From: Thermus oshimai DSM 12092
GTDB taxonomy: Bacteria; Deinococcota; Deinococci; Deinococcales; Thermaceae
Reading direction: 5' to 3'
Assembly (NCBI RefSeq): GCF_000373145.1
Contig: NZ_KB890621.1
Location: 1-64,000 of the forward strand
Length of the DNA: 64,000 bases
The position numbers and the translations under genes were made by a program. The notes under the pieces were generated by a model. The model was not told the DNA's origin and did not search any database. It saw only the letters and a list, made by a program, of their open reading frames with translations. Shown piece after piece: positions 39,963 through 51,613 of this stretch. Each line of letters starts with the position of its first letter. The stretch's first letter is position 1.

Positions 39963-40083
39963 GACCCCCCGGGCCCTGTGAAGGTACAGCTTTGGCCAAG
40001 CCCAGCTCCACAGGAGAACATCGGATGAACCCCCCATTTGGGGGATAGACTCCCAACAGTACCAACGATTACCATTGAAGCAG

Positions 40084-40521
40084 ATGAGGTCCAAGGGGTT
40101 CACGCTAATAGAACTCCTGGTGACCCTAGGCGTTTTGGGAATCGCCTTCAGTATCGCCGCCCTCAACCTTCGTCCCTTTTCCAACCCTCTCCAGGACGCC
40201 TGGGTCCACACGGAGGGCTACCTTAAGCTGGTGCGGGCCAAGGCCATGTCCACCACCTCCGCCTACCGGGTACGCCAGGTGGGGAACCGGCTTTTGGCAG
40301 AGTACGCACCCCGGTGCACGAGCACGAGCTTCACCGAGGACACCAGCCTGGAGCTGGAGCTCCCCCCGGGGGTTACCCTATCCACGGGAAATGGGCAATC
40401 CGTGGAGCTCTGCTTCTCCAGCCGGGGGTACAGCGACCGAAACCTGGTCTTGGTGTTCCGGAAAGAGGCCCAAGAGCGTCGCCTAGAGGTGCTCCTGGGC
40501 GGGGGGGTGAGGCGGTTATGA
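40084..40521 (+). CDS. Minor prepilin, GspH/PilA1-like
   Basis: The 145-residue protein begins MRSKGFTLIELLVTLGVLGIAFSIAAL: a class III signal cleaved between Gly and Phe by prepilin peptidase, with Glu at +5. The ATG at 40084 is preferred over a TTG at 40075 because it gives the short basic leader. First gene of a four-gene pilin operon. A candidate promoter lies upstream (TGAAC at 40026-40030, TAGACT at 40046-40051), with a small CCCCC/GGGGG hairpin inside its spacer. The order matches the pilA1-pilA2-pilA3-comZ cluster known in Thermus thermophilus, needed for piliation and DNA uptake. Confidence 0.88.
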   Translation: MRSKGFTLIELLVTLGVLGIAFSIAALNLRPFSNPLQDAWVHTEGYLKLVRAKAMSTTSAYRVRQVGNRLLAEYAPRCTSTSFTEDTSLELELPPGVTLSTGNGQSVELCFSSRGYSDRNLVLVFRKEAQERRLEVLLGGGVRRL

Positions 40522-40898
40522 GGCACGGCGGTTCCCAGGGGCTTTCCATTGTGGAGGTGGTGGTGGCCCTCGCCGTCTTGGGCATCGCCCTGGCCTTTAT
40601 CGTCCCCTCCTTCGTGGGGCACCTCCAGACCAATACGGCTTCTGAGGTCCGCTCCCAAGCGGTCTTCCTAGCCCAGCGGGAGTTTGAAAGCCTAAGGCTC
40701 CAGGACCCTTCCACCCTGCCCACCTCGGGGAGTACGGAACGGCAAGAGGGGTACGGGGGGCGCACCTTCACCCTACGCCGCACCTACTGCGCCCAGGCCT
40801 CCTTGTGCGGCCCCGGAAGCCGGCACATCCGGGTGGAAGTGGTCTGGAACGGGAGGACGGTCTATGCCGCAGAAACGGTCTACACTAGCCTCCGCTAA
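40518..40898 (+). CDS. Minor prepilin, GspI/PilA2-like
   Basis: A 126-residue pilin-like protein starting MRHGGSQGLSIVEVVVALAVLGIALAFIVPSF; cleavage after QG leaves Leu +1 and Glu +5. AVFLAQREFESLRLQ after the N-terminal helix is a GspI/PilV-like feature, and two Cys (YCAQASLCG) can form a disulfide. It starts on the ATGA overlap with the previous gene. Confidence 0.88.
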   Translation: MRHGGSQGLSIVEVVVALAVLGIALAFIVPSFVGHLQTNTASEVRSQAVFLAQREFESLRLQDPSTLPTSGSTERQEGYGGRTFTLRRTYCAQASLCGPGSRHIRVEVVWNGRTVYAAETVYTSLR

Positions 40899-41754
40899 GG
40901 GGCTCACCCTGATAGAGCTCCTGGTGGCTCTGGGCATCGGGGCCCTGATCCTGGCCCTTTCCCTGGGCCTGGTCCTTTCCAACCGCCAGCTCTACACCCT
41001 GGACCAGACCCGAACCGCCCTGAACCAGAACCTACGGGCGGCTCTGGACCTCCTGGGAGCCGACATCCGCCAAGCGGGGGAAAGGACACCCATGGACTTT
41101 CCTGCCGTCCAGGTGTCTAGTGGGAACACCTTGGTCCTCCGCAGGAACCTGCTGGACGCGGTTTTAACGCTCTGCGACCGAAACGGCCTACAGGCCGGGA
41201 GCAGCCAAGACGTGCTCTTTGTGGCCCGAAGGGACCACAGCCCTCCGCCCCAATGCCTCCCCCAGGACGGGGACGGAAACGGGTGGGACGACCGCCTGGA
41301 GGCCTTCGCTCGTTACCGCCAGGAAAACGGAGGGGAGGTAACCTTCTACCTCTATGACCCCACCACGGGAAGAGGGGAGTTCTTCCCCTACGACGCCGAG
41401 GACCAATCCCGTTTCCACATCCACCGCGCCCGGGGACGGTGGACCAACGACTACCCCGGGAACGGCACCAGCCGGATCTACGCCCTAGAGGAACGCCGGT
41501 ATGTGCTCCAAGACGGCCTGCTTCACCTCATCCTGAACGGGAATGCGGCCGCACCCTTGCGCTTAGTGGATCGGGTGACGGGCTTTAGGGTGGCGGTGCG
41601 CACCCAGGACGGCAGAACTCACACGGATTTCGGTAGCCGGGGCCAGCGGTGGACGGATGTGGCCGCAATCCTGGTGGAGGTCACGGTGCAGGAAGGGGGG
41701 CGAAGCCGCACCCTCAGCGGGGAGTACTTTCCCCGCAATGTTCTCTCGCAGTAG
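40864..41754 (+). CDS. Minor prepilin, GspJ/PilW-like (PilA3)
   Basis: A 296-residue protein with an extended leader, MPQKRSTLASAKG, then LTLIELLVALGIGALILALSLG (Glu +5). LNQNLRAALDLLGADIRQAG is the PilW/GspJ block, and a large extracellular domain follows with two Cys and an Asp-rich loop (PQDGDGNGWDD) that looks like a calcium site. It overlaps the preceding gene by 35 bases and is followed by the ComZ-like gene after 9 bases. Confidence 0.88.
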   Translation: MPQKRSTLASAKGLTLIELLVALGIGALILALSLGLVLSNRQLYTLDQTRTALNQNLRAALDLLGADIRQAGERTPMDFPAVQVSSGNTLVLRRNLLDAVLTLCDRNGLQAGSSQDVLFVARRDHSPPPQCLPQDGDGNGWDDRLEAFARYRQENGGEVTFYLYDPTTGRGEFFPYDAEDQSRFHIHRARGRWTNDYPGNGTSRIYALEERRYVLQDGLLHLILNGNAAAPLRLVDRVTGFRVAVRTQDGRTHTDFGSRGQRWTDVAAILVEVTVQEGGRSRTLSGEYFPRNVLSQ

Positions 41755-41763
41755 GAGGCAAAC

Positions 41764-43659
41764 ATGAAGGGAAAAGGGTTTGCCCTAGTCACCGCGCTGA
41801 TCCTCCTCACGGTGCTTATGGCCCTCCTCACCGCGTACTTCACCCTCACCCGCATAGAGCTCAGCACCACAAGCGCCTCGGCTGCGCAAACCGCGGGCTT
41901 TTATGCCGCGGAGGCCGGGCTCAACCTCCGGGCGGAGGAAGTCCGGCAAAAGTTTTTAGGTTACAACCGCCCCTCGGGCACCCCCCCAAGCCCCACGAAC
42001 CCCTGCCAGGGGAGCAACCAGGGGGGTGGGGACTTCCGCTGCCAGGCCTACACCCTTTCCGGCCGCCGGGTGATGACCTACGTGGTGGAAGATCCCAACA
42101 ACCCCCAGGTGATCCGGATTCCGCCGGGAGAGCTTTACCAGAACCTGAACGCCCAGGAGTACCGCTATAGCGTCTTCTCCGTAGCGGAGGGACGGGACGG
42201 GAGGCCGGAGGCCATCCTGGAGATGCGCTTCAAGAGCCGGGTGGTGCCCCTCTTCCAGTTTGCCGTCTTTTACCAGCAGGACCTGGAGTTCAACCGCACC
42301 GCCCCCATGACCCTCGAGGGCCCGGTGCACACCAACAGCGACCTTTACTTGGACGCAGGGGGTGGCTCCACTCTGACCATCCGAGGCCAGGTAACCGCCG
42401 CAGGAAGGATTTACCGGGGGAACAAGTCCTCCCGGGGGAGTACGGGCACCGTCCGGGTCCACGATGGGAACCAGGACCGGGAGGTAAGCAACACCGACAG
42501 CCTGCGGGCTCTGTCTCCATCGGAAATCCGGAACTGGAACGGATGGATGCAGGCCGGAGTGGATCCACCCACCATCCCCACCCCCGACACCTTCAACCCC
42601 CCCTGGCGAGGCCGGGCAGGGGAGTACTGGAACAAGGCGGACCTGAGGGTGGCCTTGGACCTCACGGGCACCACACCCACCATAAGGGTCTACAACCCTG
42701 ACGGAAGCCTGGCCCTGGCCGACAGCCTGCTGGCCTCCGCTTGCCCTAGCGCCTTCGGCTACAGCAACAGCTTCTACAACAACCGGGAGCGCCGGACCAT
42801 CTCCATGTTAGAGGTGGACGTTCAGAGGATGCTGGACTGCATCCACATCCTCAGGACTGTTCACGGTGCCCTTTCCTTCGGCTTAGACGACACCACCGAC
42901 GGGGGCCTGGTGGTCCACCTTTCCGTCAGGGGGCCGGATAGCGACCGGACCAATGGCTACGGGGTGCGCCTTAGAAACGGGCGCGAGCTCCGATCCGCCA
43001 TCTCTGGGGCCCCTGCCATTCAAGGCCTTACCCTGGTCACGGACCAAGCCCTCTACATCCAGGGGGACTTCAACGCCGTGAACTGGAGGCCGGCGGCCCT
43101 CATGGGCGACTCCATGAACTTGCTCTCCAACAACTGGGCGAACGGGGAGGCCTACCCTACCCCTCGGCCCGCGGGCTGCCCCGCCACCATAAGCGGGGAT
43201 ACCAAGAGCCGGCCTGAGTGCCGTCTGAGGGGCCAGAATCTCCCCGGTGGGGATAACGGCACGGACACCTCTCGGTGGCTTCCCCAAGCCACCACTACCA
43301 CGGTGAACGCCGCGGTGCTCAGCGGAGCTTCCGTGACCCCCACCCAAGGTGGGCAGGAGGGTGGAGGCGTGCACAACATCTTCCGCTTTCACGAGCACTG
43401 GGGAAGCAACACCACCCAGTGCTGCGGAGGTAGCGTACGCTACACGCAAGCCACGTTTAACTTCACGGGTTCCATCGTAAGCCTGGGAGAGCCCCGAAAC
43501 GTCAACGGCCCCTTCTTCCTCGGCCCCCCGTGGTACCAGCCCCCCATCCGCAATTGGTCCTTTGACACCCGCTTCAACCACTACCAAAACCTGCCGCCCC
43601 TGTCCCCCCGCTTCGTCTACCTAAAACAGGAACTCTTCGTGCGGCAGTTTGAGCGCTAG
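41764..43659 (+). CDS. ComZ-like large pilin-associated competence protein
   Basis: The 631 residues start MKGKGFALVTALILLTVLMALLTAYFTLTRIE, a prepilin-like leader cleaved after KG, but the +5 residue is Thr, not Glu. Loss of Glu5 is typical of GspK-type tip subunits. YAAEAGLNLRAEEVR follows the helix as in PilX/ComZ, then a long, Gly/Asn-rich, beta-rich domain with eight or so Cys, including NTTQCCGG near residue 555. With the three preceding minor pilins it should form a GspHIJK-like tip complex on the DNA-uptake pilus. The identity with T. thermophilus ComZ is inferred from order and N-terminus. Confidence 0.8.
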   Translation: MKGKGFALVTALILLTVLMALLTAYFTLTRIELSTTSASAAQTAGFYAAEAGLNLRAEEVRQKFLGYNRPSGTPPSPTNPCQGSNQGGGDFRCQAYTLSGRRVMTYVVEDPNNPQVIRIPPGELYQNLNAQEYRYSVFSVAEGRDGRPEAILEMRFKSRVVPLFQFAVFYQQDLEFNRTAPMTLEGPVHTNSDLYLDAGGGSTLTIRGQVTAAGRIYRGNKSSRGSTGTVRVHDGNQDREVSNTDSLRALSPSEIRNWNGWMQAGVDPPTIPTPDTFNPPWRGRAGEYWNKADLRVALDLTGTTPTIRVYNPDGSLALADSLLASACPSAFGYSNSFYNNRERRTISMLEVDVQRMLDCIHILRTVHGALSFGLDDTTDGGLVVHLSVRGPDSDRTNGYGVRLRNGRELRSAISGAPAIQGLTLVTDQALYIQGDFNAVNWRPAALMGDSMNLLSNNWANGEAYPTPRPAGCPATISGDTKSRPECRLRGQNLPGGDNGTDTSRWLPQATTTTVNAAVLSGASVTPTQGGQEGGGVHNIFRFHEHWGSNTTQCCGGSVRYTQATFNFTGSIVSLGEPRNVNGPFFLGPPWYQPPIRNWSFDTRFNHYQNLPPLSPRFVYLKQELFVRQFER

Positions 43660-43767: not shown

Positions 43768-43799
43768 CTGACACGGCCATGACGGAGCCCCCCCAAGCT
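43768..43799 (+). promoter_or_regulatory. Pho-box-like promoter of the alkaline phosphatase gene
   Basis: CTGACAC (43768-43774), 4 bp, ATGACGG (43779-43785), 8 bp, CAAGCT (43794-43799). The layout is the same as at the four other sites listed below; here the -10 is the weakest and a 19-base leader with GGAGGG precedes the ATG. Confidence 0.6.
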
Positions 43800-43818
43800 G
43801 AGGGCGGAGGGATCGGGT

Positions 43819-45318
43819 ATGAACCGTAGGGATCTCCTCAAGGCAGGACTGGTCATAGGGGCCGCCTCGGGGCTGGCCCGGGCCCAGGGGGGGATGATGC
43901 CCTTCTTGCCCAAGGCGCGGAACCTCATCGTCATGGTCTACGACGGCTTCTCCTGGGAGGACTTCGCCATCGCCCGGGCCTACGCCCAGCGGGTTCTGGG
44001 CCGGAAGCTCACCTTGGAACGCCTCTTCGGGCAGGGGGCCTTCGGCCAGATCCACACCAACAGCCTCACCTCCTACGTCACCGAGTCCAGCGCCGCGGGG
44101 AACGCCTTCTCCTGCGGGGTGAAGACGGTGAACGGGGGGCTGGCGGTGCACGCGGACGGGACCAAGCTCCTCCCCATCTTCGCCGCGGCCAAGGAGGCGG
44201 GCAAGGCGGTGGGCCTGGTGACCACCACCACGGTGACCCACGCCACCCCCGCCTCCTTCGTGGTGAGCAACCCCGACCGCAACGCGGAGGAGGCCATCGC
44301 GGAGCAGTACCTGGCCTTCGGGGCGGAGGTCTACCTGGGGGGTGGGGACCGGTTCTTCAGCGCGGAGAGGCGGAGCGACAAAAAGGACCTCTACGCCCTC
44401 TTCCGGGAAAAGGGCTACGGGGTGGTGCGCACCCTCGAGGAGCTCCAGGCGGAGCGCTCCAACCGCCTCCTGGGGGTCTTCTCCAGCAGCCACGTGCCCT
44501 ACGAGGTGGACCGCCGCTTCCAGGGGGTGAAGGTCCCCTCCCTGAAGGAGATGACCGAGGCCGCCCTTAAGCGCCTTCCCGCCTACCGGCAGGGCTTTGT
44601 CCTCCAGGTGGAGGCCGGGCGGATCGACCACGCCAACCACCTCAACGACCCCGCGGCCACCCTTTGGGACGTGCTGGCCGCGGACGAGGCCCTGGAGCTC
44701 CTCCTCGCCTTCGCGGACCGTTACCCCGACACCCTCCTGATCGTGGTCTCGGACCACGCCACCGGGGTGGGGGCCCTCTACGGGGCTGGCCGGTCCTACC
44801 TGGAGAGCAGCCGGGGGGTGGACCTCCTCAAGGACCAGAAAGCCTCCTTTGAGTTCATGCTGGCGCGCCTGGGCCAGAACCCCGACGCCGCCCAGGTGAA
44901 GGAGGCCTTCCGCGCCATGAAGGGGGTGGCCCTCAAGGACGAGGAGGCGGCCATGGTGGTGGAGGCCATCGCCAAGAAGGCCTACCGGCCCGACGGGGTG
45001 CGCTACGGCGTCCAGCCCGCCAACACCCTCTCCTGGGCCATGGTGCAGCGGGAAGCCGCCCGCCCCGACCGGCCCAACATCGGCTGGAACTCCGGCCAGC
45101 ACACCGCAAGCCCAGTGATGCTGGCCCTCTACGGGGCCGGGGTGGGCCGGGGGGTGCAGCTGGGCCTCCTGGACAACACCGATGTCTTCACCCTCATGAG
45201 CCGGGCCCTGGGGCTCCGCTACCAGAACCCGGTGATGACGGAGGAGGAGGCCCTGGAGGTCCTGGCCAAGCGCCCCGGGGCGGAGTGGGTGCACCCCAAG
45301 GAAACCCTGGCGGTGTAG
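43819..45318 (+). CDS. Alkaline phosphatase, Tat-exported
   Basis: A 499-residue phosphomonoesterase that frees phosphate outside the cytoplasm. MNRRDLLKAGLVIGAASGLARAQ is a twin-arginine signal. NLIVMVYDGFSWED carries the first metal-binding Asp, SYVTESSAAGNAFSCG the nucleophile (Ser90 by alignment with the TDSA motif), LQVEAGRIDHANHLND and VSDHATG the metal-binding Asp/His residues, and NSGQHTASPV the last His. All metal ligands look intact. It belongs to the Thermus-type alkaline phosphatases and is probably induced by phosphate limitation through the upstream repeat pair. Confidence 0.93.
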   Translation: MNRRDLLKAGLVIGAASGLARAQGGMMPFLPKARNLIVMVYDGFSWEDFAIARAYAQRVLGRKLTLERLFGQGAFGQIHTNSLTSYVTESSAAGNAFSCGVKTVNGGLAVHADGTKLLPIFAAAKEAGKAVGLVTTTTVTHATPASFVVSNPDRNAEEAIAEQYLAFGAEVYLGGGDRFFSAERRSDKKDLYALFREKGYGVVRTLEELQAERSNRLLGVFSSSHVPYEVDRRFQGVKVPSLKEMTEAALKRLPAYRQGFVLQVEAGRIDHANHLNDPAATLWDVLAADEALELLLAFADRYPDTLLIVVSDHATGVGALYGAGRSYLESSRGVDLLKDQKASFEFMLARLGQNPDAAQVKEAFRAMKGVALKDEEAAMVVEAIAKKAYRPDGVRYGVQPANTLSWAMVQREAARPDRPNIGWNSGQHTASPVMLALYGAGVGRGVQLGLLDNTDVFTLMSRALGLRYQNPVMTEEEALEVLAKRPGAEWVHPKETLAV

Positions 45319-45331
45319 AGGGCTTCCCAGG

Positions 45332-45368
45332 AAGCCCCCGCCGAATCCTCCCCCTCGGCGGGGGCTTT
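45332..45368. terminator. Bidirectional terminator between alkaline phosphatase and glycosyltransferase
   Basis: AAGCCCCCGCCGA pairs with TCGGCGGGGGCTT (13 bp, loop of about 10), followed by TCC on the plus strand and lying 2 bases after the end of the convergent glycosyltransferase gene. Confidence 0.7.
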
Positions 45369-45369
45369 C

Positions 45370-46086
45370 CTACAATCCCTCCGCCAGCTCCGCGTGGTTC
45401 TTGAGGGCCAGGGGGCCAAGGCCGTGCTTGGCCCTTAGCCTTTCCAGGTAGAAGGCCCGCTCCGCCTCCCGGCCCAGGCTCTGGTTGCCCCCGTGGAGGC
45501 CGATCCCCACCCCTGGGCCCTTGAGGTAGCGGAAGGGGAGGCCGGCCCGGTAGACCCGAAGCCAGAGGTCCCAGTCCCAGTAGTGCCCCATGGCCTCGTC
45601 CAGGGGGCCTAGGCGGTCCATCCAGGCCCGGGGCAGGGCCGTCCCCGAGGCCAGGAGGCGGTTGTCCTTTAGGAGCCAGGGGCCCACCTCCCCCGGCTCC
45701 AGGCGGCGGGTCTCCACGGGCCCGAAGAGGAGACCCCCCGTGTAGACCAGGGCCTCCCCCATCTCCTGGGCCCGGCGGACCCGATGGAGGTAGGCGGTGT
45801 CCAGGAGCCAGTCGTCGTCGTCCAGGAAGAGGAGGTACCGGCCCCGGGCTAAGGCGAGGCCCGTGTTCCGGGCCGCCACCTGGCCCTGCCCCCGGTTCCT
45901 GACCCCCTGGACCCGGGGGTCCAGGAAGCTCCGGGCCACCAAAAGCCCTTCCCCCGCCCCGTCCTCCACCACCCAGGCCTCCCAGGCCCCCAGGGTCTGC
46001 CGCTCCAGGGAGGCCAAGGCCCGGGCCAGGAACTCCGGCCGGCCCCGGGTGGGGATGAGGACGCTGAAGAGGGGCTCCCCGCTCAC
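45370..46086 (-). CDS. Family 2 glycosyltransferase
   Basis: A 238-residue GT-A fold enzyme: [60 protein letters not shown] (DxD metal/sugar-nucleotide site) near residue 90, and [15 protein letters not shown] near 190. GTG at 46086 overlaps the surE stop (GTGA), so the two are translationally coupled and share the surE promoter. Acceptor unknown; in this phosphate-starvation context synthesis of glycolipids or surface glycans in place of phosphate-containing polymers is a reasonable guess. Confidence 0.85.
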
Positions 46087-46829
46087 CGCTCGGCGCGCTT
46101 GGGGGCGAAGCCCGAGATCCAGGCCTCGTCCGTGAGGTCCAGCCTCAGGGGGGTGAGGCTCACGAAGCCCTGGGCCACGGCCCAGCGGTCCGTCCCCTCC
46201 TCCGCCTCCCCCAGGGGGTGGGCGGCAAACCAGTACCCGTCCCGGCCCATGGGGTCTTGGGCGGCGACCACCTGGCCCTCGTACCGGCGCACAGACTGCC
46301 GGGTCCAGAGGATCCCCTTGGGCTGGTGGGGGAGGTTCACGTTCACCAGGAAGGGCCAGGGGCCCTCCAGGAGGGCGGCGATCACCCGCTTGACCCAGGG
46401 GACCAGGCGGGAGAAGTCCGGCTCCTCCCCGTTCAGGGGCACGCTGAAGGCGGCCGCGGGGATGCCGAAGAGGAAGGCCTGCTTGGCCGCGGCCACCGTG
46501 CCCGAGTGCCAGATCTCGTGGCCCAGGTTGCTCCCCAGGTTGATCCCGGAAAGGACCAGGTCCGCCCCGCCCCAGTCGTAAACCCCCAGGGCCACGCAGT
46601 CCGCGGGGGTGCCGTCCACCCGGAAGGCCTCCAGGTAGGGCAGGTCCAGATCCAAAAGCCGGGTGGGGCGCATCCTCAAGGGGCGGGCGATGGTGATGGC
46701 GTGCCCGGAGGCGCTCATCTCCCACTCCGGGGCCACCACCCGCACCTCCCCGAAGTCCAGCGCCGCCCGGGCCAGGGCCAGGAGGCCGGGGCTCAGGATG
46801 CCGTCGTCGTTGGTCACCAGGATCTTCAT
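46083..46829 (-). CDS. surE: 5'/3'-nucleotidase SurE
   Basis: Metal-dependent phosphatase acting on nucleoside monophosphates. The 248 residues have [23 protein letters not shown] with the DD metal site at the N-terminus, [29 protein letters not shown] and [39 protein letters not shown]. Usually a housekeeping gene, here it has a Pho-box-like promoter and should recycle phosphate from nucleotides. The ATG is 6 bases behind TAAGGT, so leaderless. Confidence 0.95.
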
Positions 46830-46835
46830 GCCCCC

Positions 46836-46867
46836 ACCTTAGCCCCCGGCGGTCAGGAGGCGGTCAG
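46836..46867 (-). promoter_or_regulatory. Pho-box-like promoter of surE-glycosyltransferase
   Basis: Minus strand: CTGACCG (46867-46861), 4 bp, CTGACCG (46856-46850), 8 bp, TAAGGT (46841-46836), 6 bp, ATG. The two 7-mers are identical. The box lies at the 3' end of the upstream TIM-barrel gene (its stop is at 46839). Confidence 0.7.
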
Positions 46868-47564
46868 CCAGGAAGCGCAGGGAGGGCCCGGGGTCCCCCC
46901 ACACCTCCAGCACCCAGGGCACCCCCTCGAGGCCTTCCAGCCAGGCCAGGTCCCCTTCCCCCCGGTCCAGGTTCCAGTGCCGGTCGTAGACCCCGTCCGT
47001 GCCGTTCAGGTGCAGGTGGCCCGGGCGGAGGGCGAGCCAGGAGAAGGGGTCGGGGGTGGCGCTGAAGACCCGGGCGTGGGCGGGGTCAAAGCAGAAGCCC
47101 AGGCCCAGGGCCTCCAGGAGCTCCACCAGGACCCCAGGGGCGGGCTCGTGGGTGTTCTCCAGGAAAAGGGCCACTCCCAGGGCCCGGGCCCTCTCCACCA
47201 GGGGCCTCAGGGCCTCCAGGAGGGGCTCCACCCGGGCCAGGGCCCCCGCCAGGGGGGTCTTGGCGGGGAGGCCGGAGTGGAAGACCGCCCGCTCGGCCCC
47301 CAGGCGGGCCGCGGCCTCCAGGCCCTCCAGGAGGCGCCTTTGGGAGAGGTCGGCCACCTCGGGGTCGGGGGCGATGGGGTCCAGGTTCCAGAAGGGGAGG
47401 TGGGCGGAAAGGGGCCCGGGAAGCCTCCGGGCCAGGCGCTCCAGGAGGGCCCGGTCCCCCAGGCCCCGGGGGTCCAGGTAGACCTCCGCCCCCAGGCCCA
47501 GGGCCTCGAGGCGGGGGAGGAGGGCCTCCGCCTCCAGCAGGTTCACGGACCAGAGGAGCCGCAT
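46839..47564 (-). CDS. Xylose isomerase-like TIM-barrel protein
   Basis: A 241-residue barrel of the AP endonuclease 2 / sugar-phosphate isomerase superfamily: AHLPFWNLDPIAPDPEVADLSQRRL, AVFHSGLPAKTPL, ALFLENTHEPAPGVLVELLEALGLGFCFDPAHARVFS and PGHLHLNGTDGVYDRHWNLDRGEGDLAWL supply the usual His/Glu/Asp metal ligands. The catalytic role is unknown. The ATG at 47564 is 6 bases behind a -10 box, so leaderless, and a Pho-box-like pair precedes it; that suggests a phosphorylated substrate. Confidence 0.78.
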   Translation of the reverse strand: MRLLWSVNLLEAEALLPRLEALGLGAEVYLDPRGLGDRALLERLARRLPGPLSAHLPFWNLDPIAPDPEVADLSQRRLLEGLEAAARLGAERAVFHSGLPAKTPLAGALARVEPLLEALRPLVERARALGVALFLENTHEPAPGVLVELLEALGLGFCFDPAHARVFSATPDPFSWLALRPGHLHLNGTDGVYDRHWNLDRGEGDLAWLEGLEGVPWVLEVWGDPGPSLRFLADRLLTAGG

Positions 47565-47570
47565 GCCCCC

Positions 47571-47602
47571 ACCCTAGCCTCCCCCTGTCAGGGGCAGGTC
47601 AA
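47571..47602 (-). promoter_or_regulatory. Pho-box-like promoter of the TIM-barrel gene
   Basis: Minus strand: TTGACCT (47602-47596), 4 bp, CTGACAG (47591-47585), 8 bp, TAGGGT (47576-47571), then GGGGGC and ATG at 47564. Same layout as the sites before ugpA and surE. Confidence 0.7.
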
Positions 47603-47603
47603 A

Positions 47604-47665
47604 GCCCCCGGGACAAGCCCGGGGGGTAAGGAAGGGGAGCCCGGAGGGCCTTCCGCCCTCCGGGG
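47604..47665 (-). ncRNA. Candidate small RNA with two hairpins (or ugp terminator region)
   Basis: A -10 box at 47673-47668 predicts a minus-strand transcript from about 47661. The following 60 bases hold no open frame and fold into two perfect hairpins: a 10-bp stem at 47640-47664 and CCCCCGGG/CCCGGGGG (47605-47612 with 47618-47625), followed by CTTTG as on a weak intrinsic terminator. Alternatively both hairpins simply end ugp transcription. A promoter exactly at the ugpB stop is what suggests a separate RNA. Confidence 0.4.
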
Positions 47666-47667
47666 TT

Positions 47668-47699
47668 AGGTTAAGCCCCCCGTGTCAGGAGGCCTTCAG
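47668..47699 (-). promoter_or_regulatory. Pho-box-like promoter at the ugpB stop codon
   Basis: Minus strand: CTGAAGG (47699-47693), 4 bp, CTGACAC (47688-47682), 8 bp, TAACCT (47673-47668). The first repeat overlaps the ugpB stop. It points into the two-hairpin region and toward the TIM-barrel gene, which has a second box of its own. Confidence 0.6.
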
Positions 47700-48994
47700 C
47701 GGGCCACGCTGGCGTTGTAGCGCCTCAAAGCCTCGTCCGCCCGGGCCTTGGCCTCCCTAAGGGCCTCCCGGGCCGGCTTGCCCTGGAGGGTGGCCTCCCA
47801 GGCCGCGGCCACGTACTGGCGGATCTCGGGGAAGGAGCCCATGAGGCACCCCGCGGAGGCGGTGTTGGCCTTGGAGGTCTCCAGCTGCCGGATGGCGGTG
47901 GTGAAGTTGGGGTTCCGCACATGGGCCTGGCGCACCTCGGGAAGCTCCACCACCCCCTTCACCACGGGGAAGTACCCCGTGGCCAGGTGCCACTTGGCCT
48001 GGGTCTTGGGCTCCAACAGGAAGCGCACGAAGGCCCAGGCCCCCTGGACCTCCGCCTCCGGAAAGCCCTTGAGCACATAGAGGGCAGCCCCGCCGATGGC
48101 CACGCCGTTCCGCTCCTTCAGGTAGGGGTAGAAGGCGGTGCGCACAGGGAAACGGCCCCCCACCTGGCGGAGGACCCCCGTGAGGCTCGCGGTGGAGTAG
48201 GCGGCGATGGCCGCCTGGCCCTGGGCGAAGAGGTTCTGGGAGTCCGTCCAGTTCCTCCCGGTGTTGGCCGCCACCCCTTCCCGCACGAGGCGAGCGTACA
48301 TGTCCAGGAAGGCCACCGCGGCCTCGTTGTCAAAGGCCACCTCCGTGGCCCGGGCCCTGCGGCCGTTCTCCCCGTTGCAGAAGAAGTAGCCGGAGTTGTA
48401 GCTCACCTGTTCCACGAACCAAGAGTCTATGGGGATGGAGAGGCCGTAGCGCACGGTGCGCCCCTGGGCGTCCTTCTTGGTGAGCTTGCGGGCCGCCTCC
48501 TCTAGGTCCTTCAGGCTCCAGCTGGCCTTGAAGGGGATGCCCGCCTCGTCCAGGGCCGCGGCGTTAAGGTAGAGGATGGGGTTGGAGGAGTTGAAGGGCA
48601 GGCCGTACAGCTTGCCCTCCACCGTGTAGTAGTTCCTGGGCTGCGAGAGGAAGCGGTCCAGGTCAAAGCCGCTGGCCCGGGCCAGGTCCTCCAGGGGGAC
48701 CACGGCGCCGGAGTCGGCCATGATCCGGGCCCCGATGTCGTAGACCTGGATCACGTGGGGGTAGCCCCGGCCGGCCCGGAGGGCGGCCAGGAGCTTGTTG
48801 ATCCCGTCGTCGTAGCTCCCCACGTACTGGGACTTGACCTCGTAGCGGTTCTGGCTCCGGTTGAAGTCCTGGACCAGGGCCTCCGTGGCCTCCCCCAGGA
48901 CCCCCCCCATGGAGTGCCAGAACTGCAGGGTGATCTTCCCCTGGGCCAACGCCGCTCCCCAACCTAGGACCAAGAACCATACCAGTCTGCGCAT
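47696..48994 (-). CDS. ugpB: ABC transporter substrate-binding protein, UgpB-like
   Basis: Exported family-1 solute-binding protein of 432 residues: signal MRRLVWFLVLGWGAALAQ, then ITLQFWHSMGGVLGEATEALVQDFNRSQNRYEVKSQYVGSYDDGINKLLAALRAG, which resembles glycerol-3-phosphate-binding UgpB. GAALYVLKGFPEAEVQGAWAFVRFLLEPKTQAKWHLATGYFPVVK is typical of the family's C-lobe. The start at 48994 follows AGGAGGTGGGT. The likely ligand is glycerol-3-phosphate or a glycerophosphodiester, from similarity and the Pho-type promoter; a sugar cannot be excluded. Confidence 0.85.
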   Translation of the reverse strand: MRRLVWFLVLGWGAALAQGKITLQFWHSMGGVLGEATEALVQDFNRSQNRYEVKSQYVGSYDDGINKLLAALRAGRGYPHVIQVYDIGARIMADSGAVVPLEDLARASGFDLDRFLSQPRNYYTVEGKLYGLPFNSSNPILYLNAAALDEAGIPFKASWSLKDLEEAARKLTKKDAQGRTVRYGLSIPIDSWFVEQVSYNSGYFFCNGENGRRARATEVAFDNEAAVAFLDMYARLVREGVAANTGRNWTDSQNLFAQGQAAIAAYSTASLTGVLRQVGGRFPVRTAFYPYLKERNGVAIGGAALYVLKGFPEAEVQGAWAFVRFLLEPKTQAKWHLATGYFPVVKGVVELPEVRQAHVRNPNFTTAIRQLETSKANTASAGCLMGSFPEIRQYVAAAWEATLQGKPAREALREAKARADEALRRYNASVAR

Positions 48995-49003
48995 ACCCAC
49001 CTC

Positions 49004-49819
49004 CTATCCCTTCAGCCCGCCCAGGGTGACCCCACGCACCAGGGCCCTTTGGGCGAGCAGAAAGACCACAAGGCTGGGAAGAAGGGTGAGGAAGGCCGCC
49101 GCGGCCACCACGTTCCACCGGGCCACGGCGTCCTGTTCGTTGAGGATGAAGTTGATCCCCAGCTGGACGGTCATCATCTCCTTGCTCTGGACCACCACCA
49201 GGGGCCAGAGGTACATGTTCCAGCTCCCGATGAAGGTGAGGGCCGCCAGGGCCGAGAGGACGGGGGCGGAAAGGGGGAAGGCCAGGTGGCGGAGGATGGC
49301 CAGGTGCCCCGCCCCGTCGATGCGGGCCGCGTCAAAGTAGTCCTGGGGCAGGGCCTTGAGGTGCTGGCGCAGGAGGAAGACCCCCAGGGGGCTGGCCGCG
49401 AAGGGCACGACCAGGGCCCAGTAGGTGTCCAGCCCCCCCAGGCGGTCCACCAGGAGGTAGAGGGGCAGGAAGGTGATCTCCCCCGGGATGAGGAGGAAGG
49501 CCACGGCGAGGCCCAGGAAGAGGCTCTGGCCCCGGAAGGGGAGGCGGGCCAGGGCGTAGCCCGCGGGCAGGCTGGTGAGGAGGACGAGGAGGGTGGTGGC
49601 CCCGGCCACCAGGAGGCTGTTGAGGAGGTAGCGCCCTAGGGGGTAGGCGGTGAGGGCCAGCCGGTAGGCCTCGAGGGTGGCCCCCTGGGGCCAGAGGCCT
49701 GGGCGGAAGAGCTCCTCAGGGGGGCGGAAGCTGGCGGAAAGGAGCACGAGAAGGGGGAGCAGGAGGAGGAAGGCGTACCCCCCCGCCAGGAGGTAAAGGG
49801 GAAGGAGGCGCCTAGGCAT
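49004..49819 (-). CDS. ugpE: ABC transporter permease, UgpE-like
   Basis: A 271-residue inner-membrane permease with six hydrophobic helices. The EAA loop QDYFDAARIDGAGHLAILRHLAFPLSAPVLSALAALTFIGSWNMYLWPL is near residue 180. It pairs with UgpA and overlaps it by 8 bases. VVQSKEMMTVQLGINFILNEQDAVARWNVVAAAAFLTLLPSL at the end agrees with UgpE. Confidence 0.88.
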   Translation of the reverse strand: MPRRLLPLYLLAGGYAFLLLLPLLVLLSASFRPPEELFRPGLWPQGATLEAYRLALTAYPLGRYLLNSLLVAGATTLLVLLTSLPAGYALARLPFRGQSLFLGLAVAFLLIPGEITFLPLYLLVDRLGGLDTYWALVVPFAASPLGVFLLRQHLKALPQDYFDAARIDGAGHLAILRHLAFPLSAPVLSALAALTFIGSWNMYLWPLVVVQSKEMMTVQLGINFILNEQDAVARWNVVAAAAFLTLLPSLVVFLLAQRALVRGVTLGGLKG

Positions 49820-50720
49820 AGTGCACCCGCCTCCCCAGAAGCCAAAACTGCAGGGCCGCCAGGGCGATGAGGAGAAGGAGGAGGAGGACGGCCTCCGCCA
49901 GGGCGTAGGGCACCCGGAAGTTAAAGAAGGCGTCCTGGTAGACCCGGTAGATCCAGACCGTGGTGCTCTCCAGGGGCCCTCCCCGGGTGAGGAGGTGGAT
50001 GGGGCCGAAGGCGGTGAGGCTCTTCAGGACCACCAGGAGGCCCACCAGGAAGAGGACGGGGGAAAGGAGGGGCAGGGTCACCCGGAGGAAGCGGACCCAG
50101 GGGGTGGCCCCGTCCACCAGGGCCGCCTCCAGGACCTCCTCGGGGATGCTCTGGAGCCCAGCGGTGAGGAGGATGGCCGTGAAGCCCACCCCCGACCAGG
50201 CGGTGACGGCCGCCAGGGTGGGGAGGGCCCAGGCGGGGTGGGTGAGCCAGGGGAAGGGCCCAAGGCCGAGGCCCTGGAGGAGGTGGTTCAGGTACCCCCC
50301 CACGGGGTGGAGGAACCAGCCCCAGGCCACCGCGGCCACCGCGGTGGGCACCGCGGCGGTGAGGAAGAAGAGGACCCGGAACAGGGCCACCCCAGGGTAG
50401 TTGCGGTAGACCAGTAGGGCCGCGAGGAGGCCCAGGCCCAGCTCCAGGGGGACCACCATCAGTGCGAAGAAGAGGGAACGCAGGGCGCCCGCCCAAAACT
50501 CCGGGGCCTGCAGGACCTGGGCGTACTGGGCCAAGCCCACGAAGAAGGCCTTCCGGCCCAGAAAGTCCTCCTCGTGGAGGGAAAGCCAAACCCCCTGGAG
50601 GAGGGGCCAGAGGTAGAAGGCCCCGAAGAGCAGGTAGGCGGGGAGGAGGAACCCGTAGGCCCAAAGGCCCTCCCGCAAGGGGGCTGCCCGCCTCAGGAGG
50701 CGACGCTCCGAACGGACCAC
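49812..50720 (-). CDS. ugpA: ABC transporter permease, UgpA-like
   Basis: A 302-residue permease: LWAYGFLLPAYLLFGAFYLWPLLQGVWLSLHEEDFLG at the N-terminus and the EAA loop IPEEVLEAALVDGATPWVRFLRVTLPLLSPVLF near residue 205. First gene of ugpAEB. GTG at 50720 lies 7 bases behind TAACCT, so translation probably starts on a leaderless mRNA. No ATPase gene (ugpC) accompanies the operon, so a shared MsmK/UgpC-like ATPase elsewhere is presumably used. Confidence 0.88.
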   Translation of the reverse strand: MVRSERRLLRRAAPLREGLWAYGFLLPAYLLFGAFYLWPLLQGVWLSLHEEDFLGRKAFFVGLAQYAQVLQAPEFWAGALRSLFFALMVVPLELGLGLLAALLVYRNYPGVALFRVLFFLTAAVPTAVAAVAWGWFLHPVGGYLNHLLQGLGLGPFPWLTHPAWALPTLAAVTAWSGVGFTAILLTAGLQSIPEEVLEAALVDGATPWVRFLRVTLPLLSPVLFLVGLLVVLKSLTAFGPIHLLTRGGPLESTTVWIYRVYQDAFFNFRVPYALAEAVLLLLLLIALAALQFWLLGRRVHYA

Positions 50721-50727
50721 GGAGGAC

Positions 50728-50759
50728 AGGTTAGGCCCCCGCTGTCAGAAGGAGGTCAG
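50728..50759 (-). promoter_or_regulatory. Pho-box-like promoter of the ugpAEB operon
   Basis: Minus strand: CTGACCT (50759-50753), 4 bp, CTGACAG (50748-50742), 8 bp, TAACCT (50733-50728), 7 bp, GTG at 50720. The distal repeat overlaps the stop codon of the BtuF-like gene. Confidence 0.7.
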
Positions 50760-51613
50760 GCCAGGGGCAGGGCGCCCTCCGCCTCCCCGCCCCGGAGGAG
50801 GCGGGCCAGGATCCCCACCCCCTCCACCGTCCTGGGGGTAAGGGCCTGGAAGGGGCCCGCGTCCAGGAGGTAGGCCTTCCGCCCCCGGAGGTAACCCCGA
50901 AGCCACCCTCCCCGGGCCAGGTGGGCCTCCACCGCCACCCGGGCCTCCTCCAGGCCGTAGCCGCAAAAGGCCAGGAAGACCACCTCCGCCAGGGGCACCT
51001 CCTCCGGAGGGACCCTCCGGCTTGGGGCCCCCGCTTCGGGCCCCAGGTACGCCCCTCCCGCGGCCTCCACCACCTCCCGCACCCAGTGCCCCCCAAGGTA
51101 GGGCGGGTCCAGCCACTCCAGGAAGGCCACCCGGGGCCTGGGGGAAGGGGGCGGGGGCAGGGCGGCCAAGCGGGCGGAAAGGCCTTCCACCAGAGCCTCT
51201 GCCCGCCCCTCTAGCCCCAAGGCCTCCCCTAGGCGCCTGAGGTCCCGGAAGAGGTCCGCCAGGCGGGTGCCCCGGAGCTCAAAGACCCTGGGCGGCCGGG
51301 GCAGGAAGGCCAGGGCCCCTTCCACCTCCCGGGGGGTGGGGGCGCAGACCTCGCAGACCCCCTGGGTGAGGAGAAGGTCGGGGGCCAACTCCAGGAGGAC
51401 CTCCTCCCGCACCCGGTAGAGGGAAAGCCCCTGGCGGTAGGCCTCCCGTACCCGCCGGTCGATCTCCTCCTGGGAGAGGCCGGGCGGGATGAGGCTTTCC
51501 GTGAGCACGGGAAGCCCCCGGGGGTTGGGGCAGCTGTGGCTCACCCCCACCGGCTCCACCCCGAGGGCCTCCAGATAGAGGGTGCCTGCGGGCACCAGGC
51601 TGGCCACGCGCAT
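50756..51613 (-). CDS. BtuF-like cobalamin-binding protein without signal peptide
   Basis: The 285 residues have the two-lobed metal/B12-binding fold of periplasmic proteins: RVASLVPAGTLYLEALG(VEPVGVSH), ELAPDLLLTQGVCEVCAPTPREVEGALAFL, GLEGRAEALVEGLSARL and VEGVGILARLL. Homologues of this group are annotated as cobalamin-binding. Here the protein starts directly with the first beta strand; no hydrophobic signal is found upstream in frame, so it should stay in the cytoplasm. The divergent cobalamin riboswitch supports a B12 link. Confidence 0.75.
   Translation of the reverse strand: MRVASLVPAGTLYLEALGVEPVGVSHSCPNPRGLPVLTESLIPPGLSQEEIDRRVREAYRQGLSLYRVREEVLLELAPDLLLTQGVCEVCAPTPREVEGALAFLPRPPRVFELRGTRLADLFRDLRRLGEALGLEGRAEALVEGLSARLAALPPPPSPRPRVAFLEWLDPPYLGGHWVREVVEAAGGAYLGPEAGAPSRRVPPEEVPLAEVVFLAFCGYGLEEARVAVEAHLARGGWLRGYLRGRKAYLLDAGPFQALTPRTVEGVGILARLLRGGEAEGALPLA

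Follow-up and report, generated by a model that had tools for sequence, protein, structure and literature searches.

In the Pho regulon of Escherichia coli, a PhoB-family activator binds to two 7-bp direct repeats that lie 4 bp apart and replace the -35 element; phoB is autoregulated, and pst, phoA, and ugp are among the targets. The E. coli Pho box is defined as 18 bp, and the consensus varies among species (PMC4415409). Here we analyzed 64,000 nt of Thermus oshimai DSM 12092 (GCF_000373145.1, NZ_KB890621.1, positions 1-64,000; referred to as the window), which harbor five sites of similar build around the genes for alkaline phosphatase (phoA), SurE, a TIM-barrel protein (tim), and a ugp-type transporter. 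Based on matches throughout the 2.26-Mb genome (labelled G000) and on conservation at orthologous promoters, these sites are very probably Pho boxes of a genome-wide and genus-wide Thermus Pho regulon under a PhoB-type activator, and not of a local regulon as proposed in a preliminary description of this DNA.

Three further findings from other systems are of relevance. Leaderless genes with a TANNNT -10 element directly before the open reading frame (ORF) are a general pattern in Deinococcus-Thermus (PMC12340547). In Halomonas HAL1, PhoBR controls the arsenite oxidase genes aioBA via a Pho box (TTGACACTCCATTGTTAT), to which binding of PhoB was shown (PMC4563254), and phosphate and arsenic genes cluster in arsenate/phosphate gene islands (PMC3834237). 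In Thermus thermophilus HB27, control of TtarsC was ascribed to TtSmtB, which shifts a fragment of 78 bp from the TtarsC upstream region; a Pho box or an effect of phosphate is not considered in the accessible part of that report (PMC5658604).

Five Sites of Identical Geometry Are Present in the Window

The five sites share the pattern CTGACNN-N4-CTGACNN-N8-nAnnnT at 43768, 46867, 47602, 47699, and 50759 (Table 1). The identical geometry of repeats and spacing had been noted in the preliminary description, and all five were recovered in place by direct reading and by a pattern count. Three of the five have one mismatch to CTGAC within one half-site. For the count, both strands of the 64 kb were searched for the two CTGAC cores followed by nAnnnT (12 positions), allowing up to one mismatch. 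Exactly the five sites were found in the whole window, compared to a mean of 0.145 and a maximum of 2 in 200 first-order Markov simulations of window size.

Within the window, the five sites alone scored >14 with the site matrix. When the sites of the own genome were excluded from the matrix, the window sites still reached 19.8-32.0, and the other top-ten sites of the genome fell within this range. A simulated 2.26-Mb genome gave 0.5 matches at ≥20, 0.17 at ≥22, and none at ≥24 with this matrix. The phoA site was the weakest of the five (19.8) and was accepted because the box is kept in 23 of 24 orthologous phoA promoters. The sites had been described as standing before phoA, surE-GT, tim, the ugpB stop, and ugpA; no gene directly follows site 4, the one at the ugpB stop.

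Predicted Members of the Regulon in the T. oshimai Genome

The genome contains four exact copies of the double core CTGAC-N6-CTGAC. Two of them are inside the window, and the remaining two are located before a gene for a UshA-type 5'-nucleotidase (ushA, C1:202759) and before arsC (C3:37832). When one mismatch was allowed, matches were obtained, among others, before the first gene of a phoB-phoR-phoU operon (phoB, C2:306507) and before pstS in pstSCAB (C24:15715). With core and -10 element combined (13 fixed positions, at most one mismatch), seven matches were obtained in the genome, namely four window sites, arsC, pstS, and a DUF4032 gene.

We also scanned with two models, each scan covering the best 150 scored candidates per genome. 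Among the matches listed, a model trained on no more than the five window sites brought up only arsC and ushA in addition to these sites. The model built from 71 orthologous Thermus sites placed the five window sites, arsC, pstS, the DUF4032 gene, ushA, and phoB in the top ten of the matches listed. The suggestion that a matrix scan might bring up pst, phoU, and phoBR was thus borne out with this second model, which led to phoB(-phoR-phoU) and pstS(CAB). Rank 11 was a gene for a channel of the MIP family (PF00230). Matches below this rank were discarded, being within coding sequence or ahead of unrelated genes, and CTAAC-CTAAC matches (e.g., C1:82957 and C20:99815) were excluded as members since no phosphate gene was present.

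The targets had been regarded as all serving phosphate supply. This is true for pst, phoBRU, phoA, ushA, and others, but not plainly so for arsC, the MIP channel, and the DUF4032 gene. The box of the latter (G000:C13:246730, L039) reads CTCACCT TCTT CTGACCG, and orthologues in two further species (L413, L414) also have a box.

Conservation of the Box in Thermus and Other Thermaceae

The promoters of orthologues in 27 Thermus genomes were read directly, and a score of ≥10.5, which is reached by 0.42% of random 220-bp windows, was counted as a box. All 27 species have the box before phoB, always with 9 bp to the -10 element (TAGACT/TAAACT). It was also present in all orthologous promoters of pstS (17/17) and tim (18/18), in all 26 Thermus species having arsC, and at the four surE copies within tim loci; in further species, the box was found 6-7 nt ahead of the surE ATG. 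For ugpA, the counterpart of site 5 was present in 14 of 15 true orthologues. Two ugpA paralogues (59% identity) had no box in their promoters and serve as an internal negative control. In four other genera of the Thermaceae, tandem TGAC repeats together with a TANACT-like -10 element near the start were seen upstream of phoB in 15 of 15 readable regions.

Additional box-bearing genes in the relatives, as identified by the 71-site model, were mostly phosphate genes. They code for the classical second-type PstS (TIGR00975, above cut-off), SurE, UshA, phosphonate-type binding proteins, phytase-like enzymes, and UgpA/UgpB-like transporters. Enrichment of the motif before phosphate genes, on which the preliminary description had made its reading depend, was therefore present in the own genome and at orthologues across the genus.

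Some further arrangements were observed in the relatives. The PstS types TIGR02136 and TIGR00975 both occur in Thermus, both under the same box, and several species have one without the other (L326, L328, L329, L332, L351, L356). Back-to-back Pho boxes lie a few bases apart between divergent tim and ugpA genes (L371 9442/9450; L372 12643/12651). A small, predicted leaderless gene (63-70 aa, MxxETRLEMLLELxPEALDPG..) is located below a Pho box in several species (L336, L337, L346, L349, L411, L416).

The Putative Regulator and the Predicted Leaderless Promoters

The phoB operon (L028 10047-12280) codes for a protein with receiver and Trans_reg_C domains, followed by a histidine kinase; PhoU was assigned by sequence reading alone. 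The first protein is an OmpR-family regulator with PhoB (TIGR02154) as best family. Its DNA-binding domain was aligned to E. coli PhoB, the sequence of which was verified against PDB 1qqi/1gxp (helix RTVDQHILQLREKL versus RTVDVHIRRLRKAL). The recognition helices, RTVDQHILQL in Thermus and RTVDVHIRRL in E. coli, share RTVDxH, and the changes could account for CTGAC in place of CTGTCAT. Since the phoB gene, which is followed by phoR and phoU, has the box in its own promoter, PhoB of this operon is the probable regulator. PhoR (L028 10715-11602) is a protein of 295 aa that contains a PAS-like domain and lacks a transmembrane segment (19-residue hydropathy maximum 0.96).

The gap between box and -10 element is 8 bp nearly everywhere, 9 bp at phoB (27/27), and 7-9 bp at arsC. 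The half-sites follow each other with a period of 11 bp, and neither is at -35 distance from the -10 element. The promoter should, therefore, need an activator.

Start codons follow the -10 element after 6 nt at phoB and surE, 6-7 nt at tim, mostly 6-9 nt at arsC, and 4-10 nt at ugpA. A TANNNT no more than about 10 nt from the start, with no room for a Shine-Dalgarno sequence, was found for phoB in 26 of 27 cases (always at 6 nt), for tim in 18/18, for surE in 4/4, and for arsC in 24/26. Due to these short distances, the messages of phoB, surE, tim, arsC, and ugpA should be leaderless. The leaders of phoA and pstS both contain GGAGG. Leaderless targets as claimed before are thus predicted within the window for surE, tim, and ugpA (6-7 nt) but not for phoA (19 nt).

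We propose the following course of events. At low phosphate, PhoR would phosphorylate PhoB, with PstSCAB and PhoU taking part. PhoB would sit head to tail on the two CTGACNN half-sites, spaced by 11 bp, in the place of the -35 element and, from 8 bp (9 bp at phoB) above the TANNNT -10 element, recruit RNA polymerase with sigma-A. For roughly half the target families, a start 6-10 nt past the -10 element would result in leaderless mRNA, while phoA and pstS would be translated from a leader with a Shine-Dalgarno sequence. Putative targets are the phoB-phoR-phoU operon itself, pstSCAB, phoA, ushA, surE and the adjacent glycosyltransferase gene (GT), the ugp-type transporter, tim, and arsC. Binding of PhoB to the boxes and induction by low phosphate are what the promoter architecture predicts.

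A Pho Box Ahead of arsC and a MIP Channel Gene

The arsC box of T. oshimai (G000:C3:37832-37863; L027 9833-9864) is directly ahead of the gene. In the genus, it is found in differing upstream contexts; the -10 element is mostly of the TAGGCT type, and the start follows 6-9 nt later in 24 of 26 species. Outside Thermus (Thermaceae metagenome-assembled genomes, Trueperaceae, and distant phyla), no box was present at the expected place of arsC. A single marginal match of 10.5 at arsC in Jeotgalicoccus was judged to be due to chance. The best families of the protein are the thioredoxin-type arsenate reductases TIGR02691 and NF010053, with scores of 80.8 and 92.4 bits, which are below the cut-offs of 174.3 and 215, and its identity is based on presumed orthology to TtArsC.

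The MIP-family (aquaporin) gene has the Pho-like box ATGACCC TGCC CTGACCC-N9-TAAAAT (G000:C13:110307-110330, L402) with leaderless spacing. In some relatives, MIP genes are located in or beside the ugp/phoA cluster, adjoining tim or phoA (L374, L378, L371). A MIP channel serves as exit for arsenite in Sinorhizobium; for Thermus, such a role is speculation.

Importers for phosphate also admit arsenate, and membership of arsC in the regulon would make arsenate reduction ready when these importers are induced. Thus, PhoB may directly control arsenate detoxification through arsC (26 species) and, in some species, the MIP channel, with induction together with the importers and independent of arsenic sensing by TtSmtB. 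We consider the chances for this to be even. The conserved arsC box lies no farther than about 45 bp from the start codon and should, therefore, lie inside the 78-bp fragment bound by TtSmtB. The gene family and the promoter region are the same in both cases.

Genes of the Window and Site 4

The features of the region are collected in Table 1. Upstream of phoA (window 40075-43659), several ORFs resembling prepilins (MKQMRSKGFTLIELL.., MPQKRSTLASAKGLTLIELL..) are lined up, and a 631-aa PilX-like ORF is also present.

Table 1. Predicted promoter elements, genes, and hairpins of the phoA-surE-tim-ugp region (window positions).
Feature	Position	Strand	Details
Site 1, before phoA	43768..43799	+	CTGACAC GGCC ATGACGG-N8-CAAGCT; -10 at 43794-43799; matrix score 19.8
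phoA, alkaline phosphatase	43819..45318	+	PF00245, TAT_signal; Tat signal; 19-nt leader with GGAGG
Family 2 glycosyltransferase (GT)	45370..46086	-	PF00535; overlaps surE, presumably shared transcript; surE-GT order conserved in relatives
surE, 5'/3'-nucleotidase, predicted leaderless	46083..46829	-	TIGR00087, above cut-off
Site 2, before surE, across 3' end of tim	46836..46867	-	CTGACCG CCTC CTGACCG-N8-TAAGGT; 6 nt to ATG; score 28.4
tim, TIM-barrel gene, xylose-isomerase-like, predicted leaderless	46839..47564	-	PF01261; weak similarity to cobamide phosphodiesterase CbiR
Site 3, before tim	47571..47602	-	TTGACCT GCCC CTGACAG-N8-TAGGGT; 6 nt to ATG
Two hairpins between sites 4 and 3	47605..47661	-	Folding; second is likely ugp terminator, short U run
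Site 4, overlapping ugpB stop codon	47668..47699	-	CTGAAGG CCTC CTGACAC-N8-TAACCT; score 23.8
ugpB-like substrate-binding protein	47696..48994	-	Best NCBIfam UgpB NF008211, below cut-off
ugpE-like permease	49004..49819	-	ORF; gene order conserved
ugpA-like permease	49812..50720	-	GTG start 7 nt past -10; best NCBIfam UgpA NF007852, below cut-off
Site 5, before ugpA	50728..50759	-	CTGACCT CCTT CTGACAG-N8-TAACCT; score 32.0
Third, weaker half-site	50755..50770	-	CTGCCCC; one 11-bp turn upstream of site 5

Several relatives have the order ugpB, terminator, box, surE. In T. oshimai, ugpB and surE are separated by tim, which has a box of its own past the terminator, and site 4 is ahead of the terminator on the ugpB stop codon. 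The corresponding position is not occupied by a box in the relatives. That site 4 represents the surE box of the relatives was ruled out because their box follows the ugp terminator and site 4 precedes it. The relatives have a terminator at the place of the hairpins between sites 4 and 3. A scan for terminators with a T-run did not detect the ugp hairpin, and the fold between sites 4 and 3 was not significant as structure (z -1.36).

Discussion

Several observations weigh against a regulon under the PhoB protein of the phoB operon. This protein scores 198.7 bits with TIGR02154, for which the cut-off is 296.2; we kept the functional assignment because the cut-off is an annotation threshold and not a mechanistic feature. 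Box and -10 element are separated by 8-9 bp in Thermus versus 10 bp, as assigned here, in the E. coli phoA promoter, the sequence of which was verified in 4,662 genomes. The Thermus half-site is CTGAC(C/A)N and not CTGTCAT as in E. coli, but since Pho boxes of other species depart from that consensus (PMC4415409), CTGTCAT defines the box in E. coli only. Site 4 lacks a gene that it would directly control. Finally, a second PhoB-like response regulator (G000:C2:220974-221627), 55% identical to PhoB, could share or own some of the sites. It occurs in most Thermus genomes, and it or another OmpR-family regulator might bind to the boxes instead of the operon PhoB. We consider this very improbable, as phoB itself carries the box in every species, the targets are phosphate genes, and six box-bearing genomes (G002, G005, G018, G019, G021, G023) gave no match to the paralogue at E≤1e-60, a cut-off that could hide a divergent copy. 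Even less credible are plain -35 elements of sigma-A promoters working with no activator. The repeats (TTGAC/CTGAC) do resemble the -35 sequence TTGACA, but they would leave spacers of about 9 and 20 bp where 16-18 bp are expected, a sigma-70 promoter scan of the region gave 0 promoters, and a single -35 element would not require both half-sites and the 11-bp period to be conserved.

The arsC gene may carry its box because its product also acts as a phosphatase and is used in phosphate metabolism, and not for defence against arsenate. TtArsC has phosphatase activity (PMC8949286), and the family matches to arsenate reductase stay below the curated cut-offs. However, ArsC has no apparent signal peptide, unlike exported phosphatases, and the arsenate role has experimental support in HB27 (PMC5658604), which makes this explanation rather unlikely. 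For site 4, the balance is even between a working promoter and a non-functional site, that is, a relic of rearrangement or an extra docking site for PhoB 97 bp above site 3. The two hairpins that follow, the lack of a start codon, and the position of the box directly before surE in relatives, where here tim with its own box intervenes, argue against a promoter. On the other hand, the score of 23.8 and the 8-bp spacing to the TAACCT -10 element are far above chance, so that site 4 may give rise to a short transcript or to read-through into tim-surE-GT.

In its repeats, its PhoB-family activator, the box at phoB, and the targets pst, phoA, and ugp, the predicted Thermus regulon resembles that of E. 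coli. In addition to half-site and spacing, it differs in the predicted leaderless targets, in the soluble 295-aa PhoR (membrane-bound in E. coli), and in the inclusion of arsC. The -10 elements described by PMC12340547 are presented with no mention of PhoB or an activator, whereas those found here lie under an activator box. A leaderless Pho regulon had been called little described in Thermus. Because leaderless expression itself is common in the phylum (PMC12340547), only its use in the Pho regulon would be new. As in Halomonas HAL1, an arsenic gene has a Pho box, in Thermus known from the sequence; unlike aioBA or the gene islands, the gene concerned is an arsenate reductase gene that stands alone in the genome, with no island, and is conserved across the genus. 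In the literature searched, with subscription papers outside the search, no Pho box or Pho regulon was found for Thermus, an absence that is no proof. Older papers from the Berenguer group (about 2001-2002) are said to deal with the alkaline phosphatase of T. thermophilus.

For a deep-branching thermophile, the analysis yields a consensus, a target list, and a promoter geometry of its response to phosphate. It provides an example of an activator that would act on predicted leaderless promoters, and a candidate set of phosphate-inducible promoters for Thermus genetics. As judged from the promoters, the Thermus Pho regulon is marked by a distinct half-site, spacing, and leaderless design, together with one surprising member, arsC. 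If the link to arsC is true, it would explain how an inhabitant of arsenic-rich hot springs escapes self-poisoning on opening its phosphate importers.

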